Origin: Onthophagus taurus
Lineage: Eukaryota; Arthropoda; Insecta; Coleoptera; Scarabaeidae
Assembly (NCBI RefSeq): GCF_036711975.1
Contig: NC_091970.1
Location: 5,339,501 to 5,403,500 of the forward strand
DNA length: 64,000 bases
Direction of reading: 5' to 3'
In this document: positions 4,319 to 41,416 of the stretch, one piece after another
Position numbering within the stretch: position 1 is the stretch's first letter
How the letters are laid out: every line of letters begins with the position of its first letter
Program-made: the position numbers and the translations under genes
Notes under the pieces: generated by a model
Seen by the model: only the letters and a program-made list of their open reading frames with translations
What the model was told of the DNA's origin: nothing
Databases searched by the model: none

Positions 4319-8340
<4,022 letters not shown>

Positions 8341-9685
8341 TAACGAAGAGGTTATGACAAAAAATGTAACCTCAAATTCGTGGAAAAAAAATTGTAAAAA
8401 TAGGCGTAAATAGAGAATAATGCAATAAAATAATGTATATTTTTGGTTTTTTGTGTAATTACTGTGTTAACTATTATATTTAAAGATATTTAAAAAAAGC
8501 ATATAATATATTAGATTAATATTAGATGTAGTTCATTAATAAATGTTATAAAAGTAAAATCTTAATCATTTCATTCTTATCATAATGTAATTGTATTATT
8601 AAATCAAATTGTTTATTAATAAATTATTATTATTTAAATTAATATAAATTAAATTATTTTCAGCGCCATCTAGCGATATCATTAATAATTTTGTTAATGT
8701 CAAAGTGAGTTCTAATAATATTAACAATTAAGTCATTATTTAATTCTTATTTATGAATATTTAAATTAATAATAATATATAAATGAGTATGTATTAATTT
8801 TCTTTTTAAGAAATTAAATAAATTTGTTTTAGAGCCATCTTGTCACATAAATAATTTTCTAAAAGTCAAATTAAGTTTTAAAAATAATTTTAATAATTAA
8901 AGCATGTTTTAATTTAATTCATACTTATCAATACTTAAATAAATAAGAACAAGAGCAGAATCTATTTGTTTTAATTTACTTTTAAATAAATATAAATTAA
9001 ATTAGTTCCAGCGCCATCTAGCGATAAAACTCTTAATTTTGTTAATATCAAAGTGAGTTCTAATAATAATTAAGTCATAATTTAATTTTTATTTATGAAT
9101 ATTTAAATAAATAATAATTAATAAATAATTGCGGAATCTATATGTATTAATTTTCTTTTTAATAAATTAAATTAATTTCTTTTAGCGCCATCTAGTGACA
9201 TAAATAATTTTCTAAAAGTCAAAGTGAGTTTTAAAAATAATTTTTATAATTAAAGCGTAATTTAATTTAATTATTATTTATTAATACTTAAATAAATAGC
9301 AAGAATAAGTGGGGAATCTATTTGTATTAATTTACTTTTAAATAAATTAAATTAAATTGATTTAGCGCCATCTAGTGATACAACAAATGATTTTTTTAAA
9401 GTCAGAGTGAGTTTTAAAAATAATTGTAATAATTAAGGCGTAATTTAATTTAATTATTATTTATTAATACTTAAATAAATAGCAAGAATAAGTGGAGAAT
9501 CTATTTGTATTAATTTTCTTTTAAATAAACTAAATTAAATTGTTTCAGCGCCGTCTAGCGATATACCTAATAATTTTTGAAACGTCAAAGTGACAGTTCT
9601 AAAAATAATTTTATTTAATAATTAAAACGTAATTTAAGTTTATTCTTGTTTATTAATTAGACAAATATTTAAATAAACATTAAAA
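8341..9685. repeat. ~175 bp tandem array with a GCGCCATCTAG core
   Basis: After the Ate1 3' end (AATAAAATAATG near 8425), about six units run from roughly 8640 to 9600. Each begins with the core GCGCCATCTAGYGATA: positions about 8664, 8834 (degenerate), 9010, 9185, 9365 and 9548, steps 169-183 bp. The core is followed by GTCAAAGTGAGTTCTAA and an AT-rich tail with TTTATTAATACTTAAATAAA. The array stops about 90 bp before the Syf2 start codon, so the Syf2 promoter lies inside or against its last unit. Confidence 0.8.
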
Positions 9686-18552: not shown

Positions 18553-20274
18553 TTAATTTTCCACTTCTAAACTATGTGTTGATATAATAGGCCATGTATC
18601 ATTATATTCATCAATATCAACAGATGTATAAACACACGACTTAATTTCTGTAACGCTCCGTTTTCCTTTCGTTTCGGGTAAAAAAACGACCGCGAAAACG
18701 GCCCCCAATAAACATTGAGTCGCAAAAAACCACATAATAACATGTACCCCAACCAAACGACTCATCCATTTATAAATTTTAGTTACTATAAACGCAATTA
18801 TTCCCTCAAAAGTGGTTGTGGTTGCTAACATCATGATCCGAGTGTTGGGTGGGAACAATTCCGAGCATGCCATATTTATTTCGGAACCAATTCCGAGGTT
18901 GTAGAAGATTAAAAAGGCGGCGATTCCTCCAGTTGGGAGCCAAGCGATTTGTGAGGTGTCGATTTTTGAAATATCTTGGAAATAAAAGTAGGAACCTTCT
19001 AATGTTAAGGCTACACCTGCAGCTATCGATGATATTGCAATCACCGGTTTGCGACCGAACATGTTTATGATTGACCCAACAGATATTGCTGATAAATAAA
19101 TTAAATTTATAATTATTTTTATAAATAATTCAATTATTTACTCGCAGGGATTAAAACGCCCCCAAAAATCAAACTTGAGTCGTTCCAATGAAACATTGAT
19201 GTGGTTAAGTTAATGATATCGGGCATATATCCGCTTATTGCAGTCCAACCACTACATTGTTGCAGAATTTTCATCCCTACAATTACTATTAATAATTAAA
19301 TGAATCAATTTTAAATAAATTTTACCGGCAACAACGATTAAAGGATGCCTAAATTTAGAGCCGAATAAAAAATCTATCGTTGTAATCTTGTGTGTTAAAT
19401 TATAATTAAGCTTCTTTTGGAGCCTCTTAATCGGAGATACCAACAAATACCCTGAAAGTGTTTGCACGCTTGCGATGCTGTTCATGGCACTTAACGCGCC
19501 TTCTTTATCTCCCTTTAACATTAAAAAATAAGGCGATTCCGGAATAAGAAGTAATAAACAAAAAAGTATGATGGGTTGGATGGCGCAAATCACAGCGAGG
19601 ACTTGATACGAGATATAAGGATTCGTCAATAATATAAACGCAGTTCCTAACATTTTATAAGAGACCATATACGATTCCAATTGATCCATTCCTTGTCCTT
19701 CAGGGATTATTTCGTTGCAATAAATCATCGCGGCCTAAAAAATAAATTAGCTAAATAAAAAAAAAAATTGTGATTGTTTTTTACAAAAACTAAAAGAGAT
19801 CCTGCCATTCCGGCTAAAAATCGCGCGACGTAAATCACTTCGGTGTTTATTGCGAAAGAGATAAGAATCCACGGGGGGCACAATAAAAATGAACAGCATA
19901 AAAGGACGGTTCTTCTACCGATTCGGTTTAATAGGAATCCTCCGAAAACACCGGCCGGGATTATTCCGAGGAAATAACTTGAAACGACCCAAGCTCCTTC
20001 TTCCTTTATGATTAAAATTAATTAAAAGAGAAAAAAGGAGATTAAAAAGGTACTACTTCGGTTATGAATCTTCCTAATGGGGAGTTTGAGGAATGAAAGA
20101 TTGATAGTGACGGTGAAGCCCATGTTGTGAACATTGCGACCATTCCAAACGGGAAAATTCCTAAAAAAAATTTTGGTTTATCTAATTTTATTGATTATTT
20201 ATTGTACCAATAGCCACACATATTCCTTGTCGATCACTTATCCCAAATAATTCCAATAATTTCTTTAAGACCAT
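18553..20274 (-). CDS. MFS sugar transporter, trehalose transporter (Tret1)-like
   Basis: Plasma-membrane facilitator of the SLC2/Tret1 family, expected to move trehalose or another sugar. Six exons join in phase to 489 residues: 20274-20208, 20160-20057, 20003-19785, 19734-19326, 19276-19142 and 19088-18553. Family signatures appear in order: loop 2-3 NRIGRRTVLL; PESPYFLMLKGD after TM6; QQCSGWTAISGY in TM7; FGRKPVIAISS in loop 8-9; GSEINMACSELFPPNTR before TM11; and PETKGKRS after TM12. Twelve membrane spans are expected. The start is the only ATG ahead of the first in-frame donor. It lies directly against an interspersed repeat that must contribute the leader and core promoter. Insect genomes carry many paralogues, so the substrate cannot be fixed. 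Confidence 0.88.
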
Positions 20275-34377: not shown

Positions 34378-35154
34378 GTTAGAGTTCCTTAAGCAAGAGA
34401 AAATCCTACAAAGGATATTGCATTACCTAAACAGAGAAATGAGAGTAATATTGCGCTTAAAACGAAACAAAAAAAACAAATTAAAAACCCCAACTCTGGG
34501 GGAAAAAATCAATATCAGCCATTTTGGTTCGGAATTAAAGAAACCGGTTGGAATTAATTTTTGAACGTTCGTTGCGGTTTGTAATGTTGCAAGTTACATT
34601 CGGGGGTACTTACAGTTAAACAGGAAACGTATTGCGGGTAAAAATCCTCTTCGTACACGATTAAAACACTGAAAATCAACACGAACGATACACACCTCTC
34701 GACGACACTCTAATAACTGATTATCACTAGTGCAATACCAACTGTTATACTTGATTTCCCCCCCACCCAAAAATCAAGAATTTATTTATTGATTTTCGCT
34801 TTTATTAAATAAAATTTATAATCATTAAAATTAATCATAATATTTTCGTAATCAACGCAAATCCTTTAATACATTCATTAATAATTAAAAAGAAACAACA
34901 TAAAAATTTAATTCGTAATTTAATACCAACATTAAAATCAAACAAAAAAGATATTTTTATGAAACAAAATTAATTAAATTTAATCAAAATTAATCGCAGA
35001 TAATTAATTAAATTGAATTCAACATTATTAACTTTACTTTTATCTTTTAAAATAATTTAATTTTTTAATAAATAATTCAAATAAATCCGAGGAAATAATT
35101 GAGGTTATGTTAAAACGTCAAAATTAAATATTTATTTCAAAATTGATTAAAACC
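34378..35154. other. Divergent spacer Lis-1/MINPP1
   Basis: Holds the Lis-1 promoter and a likely non-coding Lis-1 exon ending at 34614. The right half is AT-rich flank ahead of the MINPP1 gene. The phrase GAGGTTATGTT near 35100 is one of many scattered in the window. Confidence 0.45.
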
Positions 35155-36678
35155 ATGTTACTTCTTTGGATAATCTTTTTAAATTTCTATTTAAGTATTC
35201 ACTCCGAAGAGTACATCGAAAATTATCTCGGTACGAAATCTGCTTATCGATACGTTGCGAATCTAAATAATTTCGAAAACCACGACCAAGAAGGATGTGC
35301 GACTAAAATTTGGATGTTTGTAAGACATGGAACGCGATATCCTGGAATTTCGGATATTAAAGTAATGCGAGAGCATCTTCCTAAGTTGCAAGATGAAATT
35401 ATACGTATTAATGAAGATGAATCATTAAAAATTGATCATCGGTTATCAAAATCCGATTTGTTATTGTTTAAAAAGTGGTATCCTCGCGTGGAGGAGTACG
35501 AGGCGAAAATGTTAACTGTTGAGGGTGAAAAGGAGATGGTTGAGTTAGCCGAGAGGATGCAATGGAGGTTTCCAAACTTGTTAAAACCTTTTTATAGCAA
35601 CACATCTTATGTGTTTAAACACACTAAAACTCAAAGAACTAAAGAAAGTGGGAAATATTTTGCAACTGGTTTGTTTGGGAAGAGTGTTCATGGAGGTGGT
35701 TATTATCCGATAGCTGTAAAAAGGAATTCTATATTAAGGGTAATTTATTTATGGTTTTATTTGAATTAAATTTTCATTAAAAAATTAGTTTTATAAGTTA
35801 TGTAAAAAGTGGATTATTTCTGTGAAAAAAAATGCTCAAACTTACAGTGAAAGAAATAATTTTTATGATACGGAAATTATGAGGGAAGCTTTGGATAAAG
35901 TATCGAGTAAACTTGGATTAGATAATTTAACTGTATGTAAGTAAATTATGATTATTATAAATAAAAATATATTAATTTCTTTTTTTTTACAGCCGATTTA
36001 CACTCAATGTACGTAACCTGTGCTTTTGAAAGCTCTTGGAGTAATCGTAGAAGATCTCCATGGTGTATTCCTTTTGATATAGAAACAATAAAAGTTTTAG
36101 AATATGCTGAAGATTTAAAATATTATTGGGTGGATGGATACGGATATGATTTAACATGTAATCAAGCATGTCCCGCTTTTAATGATATGTTTAATTTTAT
36201 TAACAGGTAAATAACTCCATAAGAAATTTTCAATTAATAATTATTAATGTTTTAGTGAAGAAAAATACCCAAATGCTTTATTTTATTTCACTCACTCAGG
36301 TTCATTACTAAAAATGTTATGCCATTTGGGGATTTATCGCGATCATAATCAGTTATTGGCGAATAATTTTGAAGAGAACAAGAACCGGCAATGGAAAGTT
36401 AGCAAAATTGATCCATTTGGAAATAATTTAGCTTTTATACTTTATACGTAACTTATTCTTTATCTAATTTAAGTCAAATTTTTATTTCGATTAATTTTAG
36501 ATGTAATGGGACCAAAAAAGTTTTAACAATGCATAATGAGAATATCATTCGGCTTCCGGCTTGTCCAAAAAGTGATTTTTGCGATGTAAAAACGATTGAA
36601 GATTATTATAAAAATAGTTTAACGTGTGGTTTCGATGAAATGTGCGAAAATAACTTAATCAATATTACATCTAGTTAA
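35155..36678 (+). CDS. Multiple inositol polyphosphate phosphatase 1-like (MINPP1)
   Basis: Histidine acid phosphatase family, normally removing phosphates from InsP6/InsP5 in the ER lumen or outside the cell. Exons 35155-35739, 35789-35936, 35993-36206, 36256-36447 and 36501-36678 give 438 residues. It has a signal peptide (MLLLWIIFLNFYLSIHS), the catalytic RHGTRYP, the family segment SWCIPF-like SPWCIPFDIETIKVLEYAED, and NNLAFILYTC near the end. The proton-donor motif is altered: where human MINPP1 has HAET the protein reads FTHSGS, so the histidine stays but the glutamate is glycine. Activity is therefore uncertain. The annotated start is the first true ATG; a longer frame starts only at TTG. 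Shuffled copies of its last two exons lie 350 bp downstream. Confidence 0.85.
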
Positions 36679-37935: not shown

Positions 37936-39683
37936 TCAAGGAGCAGTCATATTACTTATGCCCCATTTACACGTTTTGTACCCCTCCGGGCTGTAATCCC
38001 AATCGATTCTGCGTTGTTTTATGATATTCGTGTACACCATTGAAGATAATCTCGGCGATCTAGTTCTTTCCATAGAATTAAAGTCGACGCTATAAAGACC
38101 AAACTTTTCACTGAAATAATAAAGGTTAACTTAATAAGGAATTAGATTATAAAACATAATTTCTTACGTATATCCTTGATACCATTGGAAATTGTCCAAA
38201 AAACTCCAAACTGTATAAGCAGAAACATTGCACTTATCTTTGTGTATAGCTGCGAGAATGTTTTCCAAGTAAGACTAAAAAAAATAATGAAAAACTTTCC
38301 TTTTTAAAGAAATTAACTCACGTTAATATAATGGACTCTGCGACAATCATTTTCATCCTCAACATCGGAGAATCCATTCGCTGTTATAAGAACTTCCGGG
38401 TTGTCATATTCTTTTTTGATCCAATTCAATAATCTTCTTAATCCCCAGGGGACAACTTTAAGCCATGAAGAAGTTCCGTTCTCCCAAGACTCGTTTTGGA
38501 CGCAAAAATCAAGTGCGAACAAAGGAGTTCCTTCAGCACTCATTTTTGGAAGGCTAACGTCACAAATTTTTGTGGTATAATGACTCAGTCCGAAGAAATC
38601 AGCGCTTCCTCGTAAAAGCTCAACATCTGCAGATTCAAATTCTGGTACTTTAAACGTAGACGTTTGTATTTGTCGACTGAAGTAATCTAATTGTTCGGAT
38701 GCCATTTTTGGATAATCCCCAATTCTTGAAAAAATCGGATTGGCAAACCATCCAAGCTATAATAAATAATTAATGGTTCAAATAACATTTAATGTTTTCA
38801 AAATTACCTCAAGCTCCATCGCTAATTCACTTAAATCTTTATCGGCTTCGCCTCGAATACCAGGTTCATTCCACGCGGATCCAAACGAAATACCAACTCG
38901 TCCATGTTGTCTTTCTCTATAATTAAAGTTGTATAATCGGTAAACTCTTGCGTGAGATTTCAAAATGGCGTGAGCACAAAGATAACCGACGTTTCCTTCC
39001 TCTTTCAGACCATCGGCAAACGAAGCTTGATCAAAATAAGGGTCAAAACAAAATTTACCAGGATCATCAAACGTAATCCAATCTCTAACTCTGTTTCCAT
39101 AAATAGAAAATAAAAGATTTGCGTACTCTTCAAACGCAACGATTAATTTTTCATTCATCCATCCGCCTTTTTCTTGTAACAGTTGAGGTAAATCCCAGTG
39201 AAACATTGTGGCGATTGGTTTAATACCATTCGCAATTAATTCGTCAATGAGTTCATTGTAATATCTAACACCATCTGTATTGACCTTGTTAGTGTATCCA
39301 TTGGGGAGGATTCGAGGCCAAGATATCGAGAATTTGTAGAAATCGACGTCCATTTCTTTTAAAAGTTGTACGTCCTCAAGGACCTTGTGGTAAGAATCGC
39401 ATGAAACGTCAGCGTTGGATCGGTCTTTTATTTTCTTGGGTTTTCCGTGCGTCAATCTATCCCAGATACTTTCGCCCTTTCCACCCTCATTCCAAGCTCC
39501 TTCGACTTGATAAGCTGAAGTTGCAACGCCGAATTTAAATTCGTTGGGAAATGTGTCTTCACTTGAAACACAAGTACTAAAACAAATATATCAGAAAAAA
39601 ATAAGATAGTTGCAAAAAAAGAAAAGTACTCACCTCAGAAGTAAAATACAATTGATTATTCTAAGTTTAATTTTCAAATACAT
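37936..39683 (-). CDS. GH1 beta-glucosidase/myrosinase homologue, catalytic residues lost
   Basis: Secreted glycoside hydrolase family 1 fold. Exons 39683-39634, 39576-38808, 38756-38322, 38274-38168 and 38110-37936 join in phase to 511 residues, normal length, with a signal peptide (MYLKIKLRIINCILLL). The fold signatures are well kept: FGVATSAYQVEGAWNEGGKG, FYKFSISWPRILPNG, MFHWDLPQ, GYLCAHAILKSHARVYRLY, TVWSFLDNF and EKFGLYSVDF. The active site is not. The acid/base motif TFNEP reads TFDDP, the nucleophile motif ITENG reads ITANG, the sugar-binding DNFEW reads DNFQW, and GLNHYTS reads GLSHYTT. With an intact long frame and clean splice sites, it looks like an expressed pseudoenzyme (binding or signalling role inferred), not a decayed gene. 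Confidence 0.88.
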
Positions 39684-41416
39684 CGTTGAGACTTGAAGTT
39701 AGAACCACTTCTGAGTGGAAACGACGATTTCTGCGGTATTTATACGATTTTTGGTGGAAGAATTTTGCTTACGAACACTTTTTATCAACTCATGAATCTT
39801 TTTTGGTATTTTAGGGTGTATGGTATTTCCTTTGGTATTTTTTTGACTAACATTGGAGTGTGATAAAAGCTATCGCCAAATTGTTTTCCAATTAAAGAAT
39901 TTCCGGCGATTAAAAGTGTAATTTTGGAAACAATTTTTATGAGTAATATCGAAAAGAATCATTTCTACCTTATTTTAAGGAGTTTAGATCATATCTAAAC
40001 TTCTTAATATATATAGATACTTTAATTAATAATTAGTGATATTTCCACAAGGATCCTTCAAGAAATGAATTTTATAGCGAATATTGAAAATTATCGAAAA
40101 TTTAAACAAAACTTCAAATATTGTTTTCTCAAAAACTAAAAGTTATTTTTCAAAACGGGTTGGTTCATTGGAAAGAAGACACTTTTATTAACACTTTGGG
40201 AAATGTCCATACTCATATTCCAAGAACTGGATTTTATATGAATTTTTAAAACTTAATCAGCGAAAATTACGAAATTCGAAAAAATTGTCGTTCATTTCAA
40301 AAATTTATTTCTCAAGAACTGAAAGTGATTTTTCAAAACGGCTTTTTGCATTAAAAATAGGATACTTTAATTAATAATTGGTGATATTTCCACAAGGATC
40401 TTTCAAGAAATGAATTTTATAGCGAATTTTGAAAGTTATCGATAAAAACTACAACATCGAAAATTTTTTCAAAACTTCAAATATTGTTTTCTCAAAAACT
40501 AAAATATATATTATATTTACATAATATATAATATACATAATAATATAAAAATATTATTATATTTTTTTCACGATTCCTTTAATTTATATAATTTTTTTAA
40601 ACAATCTCTTAATGTTGAAACAATAAGTTTTATATATCCTAAAAGAAGAGGTTTTAAGCTTTAATAGCTTCCATAAGTTGGGCTATTTTTTTGTTGATGT
40701 TTTTTCGAAAATCTAGTTAAATCGCCGATTAAAAGATAGTTATTCGCCGATTAGATTATGAATAGTTTAGAATTAATCATCGATGTTGATTTATATCAAA
40801 TATTAACAAATTACAATAAAAACAATCTTATCAAACTACTTCTCTAAAATCACCCCATTCAAATAATGCAATAACAAAAACACTTACAAAATACTAACAA
40901 TAAGTGTATTATCACACCCATATCTAAATTATTGATAAATATTAATAACATTTTAAGTAATCAGTTCCGATAAATTATTTCACGGTCACATGTGTCGAAA
41001 ATTGGTTAATTTTTAAGTTTTTAAACCCATGGCAATGAAAAGTGGAGGACGTCTCGGTTACTTTCGAATAAAAAGCAAGTTCAAGCAAACGTAAGTAGAC
41101 TTTACTTAGTTAAAATCGAGTGAAAGTGGCGTCGAAACGCATTCGCAGTCACAACTTGTCCAATCTTATCGAACAATTGGATTAAGTGCGTTATACAACA
41201 TAGATTTTTATTAATAAATCTAAATCAACGTCGATTATTGATATAGATGTCCAGACATAAACAAGGCGTCCACGTTTTTGGAGGCATCACGTGAGAATAA
41301 GAAATGTTTGTGAAACCATCAAAGTAAGTTATTTATTTGTTTTTTTCTTGTCAAAATTGTCAATGTTTTGAAATTAAAAATTCCCAGTAAACATCAAATA
41401 ATTTTTCGCGTAAAAA
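39684..41416. repeat. Spacer with two copies of a ~150 bp dispersed repeat
   Basis: A block starting ACTTTAATTAATAAT and including GATATTTCCACAAGGATC, AAGAAATGAATTTTATAGCG and AACTTCAAATATTGTTTTCT occurs at about 40018-40160 and 40365-40505. A third partial copy is near 1447. An AT microsatellite follows at 40500-40570. From 41090 on, the sequence is probably promoter and 5' leader of the next gene, with a 5'-UTR intron (41324-41387) ending TTCCCAG. Confidence 0.6.

Follow-up and report, generated by a model that had tools for sequence, protein, structure and literature searches.

A clade of five GH1 genes without the two catalytic glutamates in Onthophagus taurus

Is a GH1 gene whose catalytic glutamates have been replaced a dead copy, or is its product kept for something other than cutting glycosides? 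The question is raised by a gene of Onthophagus taurus, here called P1, whose coding region (ATG to stop) occupies positions 37936..39683 on the minus strand of the window, i.e., the whole stretch of 64,000 nucleotides analysed, which is part of contig C5. A preliminary description of this DNA had presented P1 as an intact, secreted GH1 protein of 511 residues with clean splice sites in which every key carboxylate is changed, and had argued for a new non-hydrolytic role such as glycoside binding, a Klotho-like co-receptor function or the masking of plant glucosides.

The target gene and its relatives

Spliced alignment returned exactly the 511-residue product with 0 frameshifts and 0 internal stops, from five exons at 39683-39634, 39576-38808, 38756-38322, 38274-38168 and 38110-37939, followed by the stop codon TGA at 37938-37936. 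All four introns have GT-AG borders, as do all four introns in each of the five P genes described below. Residues 23-487 match Pfam GH1 (PF00232) with 468 bits (E 2.4e-140, cut-off 22.6), and this is the single GH1 stretch within the 511 residues, tandem GH1 domains as in Klotho being absent. Exon 1 (39634..39683, minus strand) carries the putative signal peptide MYLKIKLRIINCILLL, recognised by eye, and is followed by a phase-2 intron that is the same in the four paralogues. In the spliced model, exon 2 (38808..39576, minus strand) encodes Q40, H143-W144 and the DDP site D187-D188, exon 3 (38322..38756, minus strand; 435 nt) S331, Y333 and TANG with A399, exon 4 (38168..38274, minus strand; 107 nt) W441 and Q448-W449, and exon 5 (37939..38110, minus strand) the C-terminus; exons 3 and 4 have the same lengths in all five paralogues. 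No membrane anchor or transmembrane segment is visible by eye in P1. The intact, presumably secreted GH1 protein with clean splice sites was thus recovered as described, and the four motif changes are all present in the alignment: NEP to DDP (D187-D188), TENG to TANG (A399), NFEW to NFQW (Q448) and GLNHYT to GLSHYT (S331). That every key carboxylate has changed is correct for the nucleophile and Glu448, which are gone, and goes too far for the acid/base, which is still a carboxylate (Glu to Asp) and has a second one beside it in place of the adjacent Asn.

Two further observations concern the window itself. On the 3' side of P1, an open frame at 35128-35766 (plus strand) matches His_Phos_2 (histidine acid phosphatase; E 3e-11). 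Open frames at 18556-19734 (minus strand) probably belong to a sugar transporter gene; a Sugar_tr match was obtained in 18556-19137, the part covered by the Pfam scan, and a second frame is at 19252-19734. In the genome as a whole, the telomere repeat TCAGG, which is of the beetle type, had no match, and TTAGG was present as one internal array only.

Although P1 had been treated as a lone odd gene, it proved to belong to a clade of five genes. When the whole genome (290.8 Mb, 33 contigs) was searched with Pfam GH1, at least 52 exon-level matches were obtained, and the spliced alignment of 16 regions yielded 15 gene models free of stops and frameshifts, several of them incomplete at their ends. 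In addition, C1 carries two broken relics and C7 a short fragment. Region L014 holds two genes, L016 was left out as the same gene as A4, and L018 is without a model. The P genes are P1 (C5:5378k), P2 (C5:5635k), P3 (C5:5840k), P4 (C8:4978k) and P5 (C8:5148k); the ten other models, A1-A10, lie on C7 and C3. The tree and the dN/dS analysis did not include the stop-containing fragment of 73 aa at C7:23781k or either of the C1 relics. P3 and P4 stand in the alignment without exon 1, and columns before 29 were left unused for all genes; the models of A6 and A7 are without exon 1 as well, so that Q40 is unseen in two of the ten A models.

In a protein tree of the 15 models (LG+G4+F), the five P genes are split from the ten A models with support of 100/100 (SH-aLRT/ultrafast bootstrap); the closest A genes are weakly resolved, with 93.7/74 for A1-A5 and A10 apart from P and A6-A9. 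The nucleophile position 399 is Ala in all five P genes and Glu in all ten A models. At the acid/base position 188 every P gene has Asp, while Glu is found in eight of the ten A models and Asp in A3 and A5. Position 187 is acidic throughout the clade (D, E, D, D and D in P1 to P5) and Asn in each A model, and at position 448, Glu in ten of ten A models, the P genes have Q, Q, Q, N and D. Beneath the shared residues the codons vary synonymously (Ala399 is GCG in four genes and GCA in one; Asp188 is GAT, GAC, GAC, GAC and GAT), and since the same state recurs in all members of a clade spread over two contigs with such variation beneath it, it is more than chance. The candidate explanation of an isolated loss in one gene was ruled out by the four further genes and the 100/100 clade, and a sequencing error, which the preliminary description had allowed for, by the same residues at four further loci. 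The simplest history is that both catalytic glutamates were lost once, before the clade duplicated.

Among the A genes, A3 (L015, C7:8869k) and A5 (L017, C7:11236k) have the acid/base Asp in the form NDP yet keep the nucleophile, and A5 also has R441 for Trp. The two broken relics on C1 (L024:3058-3511 and 4445-4909) belong to the P clade, are in inverted orientation and share 82% identity with each other; FDDPSKF is still readable in one of them.

Selection on the clade

If the P genes were dead copies in which decay has not yet begun to show, free variation at position 448 would be in line with this, as would the broken clade relics on C1 and the fragments on C14, C15 and C3. The codon models (own script, F3x4 frequencies) speak against it. 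Omega on the five-gene tree was 0.131, with omega = 1 rejected at 2dlnL 644, and the terminal branches gave 0.065 for P1 (2dlnL 67.6 against 1) and 0.173, 0.100, 0.133 and 0.202 for the others, each below 1 with 2dlnL of 13.4-92.9; constraint on P1 was tighter than on the remaining clade (2dlnL 8.9). Pairwise omega was 0.090-0.133 in six of the ten P pairs, and dS from P1 was 0.8 for P2, 1.0 for P3 and above 2 for P4 and P5. Moreover, none of the five genes has a stop or frameshift, and the P1 branch shows 0 nonsense changes where approximately 29 would be expected under neutrality, a number obtained by applying a nonsense-to-synonymous mutation ratio of 0.29 to the estimated 99 synonymous substitutions on that branch. 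The dN/dS values, proposed earlier as a check against neutral evolution, are thus far below 1 for the clade and for P1. We are nearly certain that the clade is being maintained instead of falling into decay, and a neutral relic is rejected.

The nucleophile-keeping genes provide a comparison. Omega was 0.063 for A6-A7, 0.151 for A2-A3 and 0.111 for A3-A4, all recent pairs, and by group 0.125 for A2-A4 and 0.047 for A6-A9, the latter maybe depressed by the near-saturated A8 and A9 (the A8-A9 pair is saturated, with dS 91, and both genes are included in the A6-A9 model and in the combined one). The combined model covers nine genes; its omega was 0.058 for A6-A9, 0.118 for the P crown and 0.288 for the branch between them, and three classes were favoured over one (2dlnL 21.9), which suggests that constraint eased on the branch of the loss and is looser in P than in A6-A9, while being far from neutral. 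Given a single basal loss, as parsimony has it, the measured constraint acted after the loss. In simulations at omega = 1, retention in all five genes had P = 0.0036 for Ala399, 0.0001 for Asp188 and 0.0014 for an acid at 187; at clade-average constraint the corresponding values were 0.41, 0.15 and 0.23. Neutrality is therefore rejected for these residues as well, but their invariance is unremarkable at average constraint and a role for them in particular is unproven.

Promoter and inverted GH1 fragments

The promoter and 5' UTR block at 39684..39911 (minus strand) is conserved in the clade, with identities of 63-81% in the ten pairs. About 225 bp before the ATG can be aligned among the five P genes, and identity drops to 34-47% upstream of approximately 40003. 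Mean identity was 0.73 in the promoter (0.42 in shuffles), 0.68 in introns 2-4 (0.54) and 0.51 in the 3' flanks (0.44), which makes the promoter the most conserved non-coding part, though the introns are not fully randomised. The core promoter AAAATCGTATAAATACCGCAGAA lies at 39729..39751 (minus strand); the motif TATAAATA at 39744-39737, which we take to be a TATA box, is followed 32 bp on by TCAG, presumably the initiator (Inr), whose A at about 39712 is 29 bp before the ATG. This TATA-to-TCAG spacing is 32-33 bp in all five P genes. A genome-wide pattern search with the core AAAATCGTATAAATACNGCAGAA gave ten matches at no more than two mismatches, five at the P genes and five elsewhere, and the reversed pattern had no match in the genome at the same tolerance; of the five matches elsewhere, three belong to loci whose GH1 content is limited to inverted fragments, and the other two share a locus without a GH1 match. 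The conserved TATA/Inr arrangement argues for the P genes being expressed, as far as can be predicted from the promoter, an argument weakened by the C14 locus, which is without an intact gene and keeps the P promoter too, at 61-72% identity. A GATA-like block, present in the promoters of P1-P4 and missing from P5, might at a guess hint at gut or fat body. On C5, at 9.06 Mb, two copies of the P-clade promoter with ATG (L046:4599-4823 and 8443-8667) lie 3.8 kb apart, and no GH1 match was found after either copy.

Three loci, L043:2394-3606 (C14), L044:3432-4739 (C15) and L045:3289-4475 (C3), are 90-97% identical to one another, and in each of them a promoter and start of the P-clade type precede two GH1 exon-2 fragments that are inverted relative to each other. 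A long hairpin is predicted for the C14 copy (480 nt, -216 kcal/mol). Between the C14 and C3 copies, identity is 94-97% in the arms and loop, as compared to 92-93% for the promoter, 89% for the downstream part and 83% for the linker. That a hairpin RNA from such fragments controls the clade was considered and is not claimed: the longest exact match to any of the five P genes is 18 nt, and of the differences between C14 and C3 at paired positions, 16 break the pair, three keep it by a one-sided change and one is compensatory, which leaves a hairpin function unproven.

The pocket and possible functions

In Ss-beta-gly, eight contacts to the sugar are named, namely a Gln, a His, three Trp, an Asn and the nucleophile, both at the C2-OH, and a Glu that contacts the C6-OH and in galacto ligands also the C4-OH (PMC6522968). 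According to the alignment, Q40, H143, W144, W441 and W449, which form the glycone clasp, are kept in all five P genes, and the remaining three contacts (N187, the nucleophile and E448) are changed. The clasp varies among the A models, with N143 in A10, Phe, Tyr and Phe at 144 in A2-A4 and R441 in A5. The ten A models share 80 invariant columns, of which 61 are the same throughout the P genes and 19 are changed. The changed columns include five of the six pocket columns of the invariant set (Fisher P = 0.0025), and when only columns that no P gene has kept are counted, the loss is 3/6 in the pocket and 4/74 elsewhere (Fisher P = 0.0076), both values being descriptive as the pocket set was picked with the finding already known. 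Nineteen residues are fixed in the P genes and occur in none of the A models with a residue at the position, among them the clade-specific F194, D195, N212 and G214 directly after the DDP site.

Because the clasp is unchanged, holding a sugar without cutting it appears the most likely action, and we give a probability of roughly one half to P1 being a secreted, non-hydrolytic GH1 barrel that holds glycosides, within a clade that was maintained and radiated. With the nucleophile absent, the double-displacement (retaining) cycle would be blocked, and ordinary beta-glucosides should not be hydrolysed. The sugar-holding side walls (Gln40, His143, Trp144, Trp441 and Trp449) could still hold a beta-glycoside or oligosaccharide uncut, and P1 would then act as a carrier, a buffer or a competitor of active beta-glucosidases. 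The variable residue 448 together with F194, D195, N212 and G214 may tune the ligand held by each paralogue, and with N187 and E448 changed, weaker binding of plain sugar is to be expected. Of the non-hydrolytic role proposed at the outset, the part that rests on an intact GH1 signature and on residues expected to preclude normal hydrolysis stands; of the particular roles named, glycoside binding or masking would fit the kept clasp.

GH1 pseudoenzymes are already known elsewhere, namely Klotho and domain 1 of akuBGL from Aplysia kurodai (PDB 8in1). Among the solved relatives of P1, akuBGL is top by summed score, and the best single domain is that of 3ai0, which we take to be a termite beta-glucosidase, with 475.7 bits as compared to 439.2 bits for akuBGL domain 2. 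Like P1, akuBGL domain 1 is a GH1 with DDP for Asn-Glu-Pro and GLSH; unlike P1, it keeps the nucleophile (TENG), forms a tandem fusion with an active GH1 domain and comes from a mollusc. For the recombinant domain no hydrolysis of O-PNG is described, with an effect of glycosylation not excluded, and its residues for glycone binding and catalysis are given as unconserved (PMC10619976), whereas the P genes keep five of the eight named contacts. A chaperone role was proposed for this non-catalytic domain (PMC10619976), and the P barrels might likewise act through protein interaction, as a scaffold, a chaperone-like partner or a decoy for active GH1 paralogues or plant inhibitors, sugar binding being irrelevant. 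The 19 clade-fixed residues, known as sequence positions only, are in line with this, and so are the GH28 pseudoenzymes of the beetle Phaedon cochleariae, which resemble the P clade as members of a duplicated insect plant-glycan family with catalytic residues lost, act in the pectin-digesting pathway with large effects of silencing (PMC6549527) and owe their recognised importance to such gene silencing (PMC6549527, PMC8213348). GH28 is unrelated to GH1, and the one tested, PCO_GH28-3, is reported to bind pectic substrates no longer (PMC8213348); by analogy, a kept fold need not imply kept sugar binding in P1 either. Against protein interaction stand the sugar-holding residues kept in five of five P genes, the lack of a known partner and the single-domain state of the five genes, which are unfused to an active domain; a simple decoy is further disfavoured, if the analogy holds, as the GH28 pseudoenzyme tested was bound only by PGIP-like proteins and not by classical plant inhibitors (PMC8213348). 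We regard protein interaction as possible, though clearly the less probable option when set beside the holding of glycosides.

Both other functions considered appear improbable, and to about the same degree. The change of Asn-Glu to Asp-Asp (or Glu-Asp) and of the nucleophile to Ala could be read as a site of the GH20 and GH84 kind, which would act on 2-acetamido glycosides by substrate-assisted, neighbouring-group catalysis; GH84 has an adjacent Asp pair, and the comparison draws on the active-site geometry of GH20 and GH84. An acid at 187 (D, E, D, D and D), Asp188 and Ala in place of the nucleophile occur in all five P genes, position 187 is that of the Asn contacting the C2 group (PMC6522968), and one GH20 enzyme has two invariant acidic pairs, Asp-Asp and Asp-Glu (PMC4752478). 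However, akuBGL domain 1 is DDP too and is described as inactive, though the assay concerned was on O-PNG and the domain keeps its nucleophile (PMC10619976). Retention of these residues does not go beyond the average constraint of the clade. We know of no GH1 of the substrate-assisted 2-acetamido type. Klotho is an FGF co-receptor, and a co-receptor or hormone-binding role was suggested for P1 by the likeness of Klotho and beta-Klotho as extracellular, GH1-like proteins that have lost catalytic residues and come second by summed score among the solved relatives. This rank arises from summing domains, the best single domain of beta-Klotho reaching 221 bits as compared to 475.7 for 3ai0, and P1 has a single domain and no membrane segment by eye; in the alignment, KL1 of beta-Klotho has HNP at the NEP site with AENG kept and KL2 has TASG at the nucleophile with NEP kept, so that each of the two tandem domains keeps one glutamate, whereas P1 lost both in one domain. 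Nothing specific was found in favour of the co-receptor named in the preliminary description.

Two further systems can be compared with P1. Plant myrosinase is likewise a GH1 without the normal acid/base glutamate (PMC6522968), but it hydrolyses by substrate-assisted catalysis with only the acid/base replaced, whereas P1 is without the nucleophile too (A399). The insect GNBP/beta-GRP proteins (GH16-like) are a case of a glycosidase family in which activity was lost and sugar recognition gained (PMC3981738); unlike P1, they belong to another family, have their own N-terminal glucan-binding domain and play an immune role.

Expansions of GH1 in insects have been read as digestion or detoxification (PMC9500737, PMC12295287), and GH1 copies losing important sites were taken as a sign of pseudogenization (PMC9500737). 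The P clade is the other outcome, in which both catalytic glutamates are gone, yet the gene multiplied under strong purifying selection; in the open-licence literature consulted, no insect GH1 clade that lacks both glutamates and is maintained was found to be described. The domain alone is therefore insufficient for counting insect GH1 genes as beta-glucosidases. If the substrate-assisted reading were true, a GH1 barrel would have switched from double displacement to substrate-assisted cleavage, for instance of chitin fragments, and radiated into five genes. The beetle GH28 case indicates that plant-glycan enzymes without activity can still be important for an insect (PMC6549527), and the five paralogues, with their nucleophile-keeping cousins in the same genome, form a set in which it can be asked what a non-cutting glycosidase barrel does.
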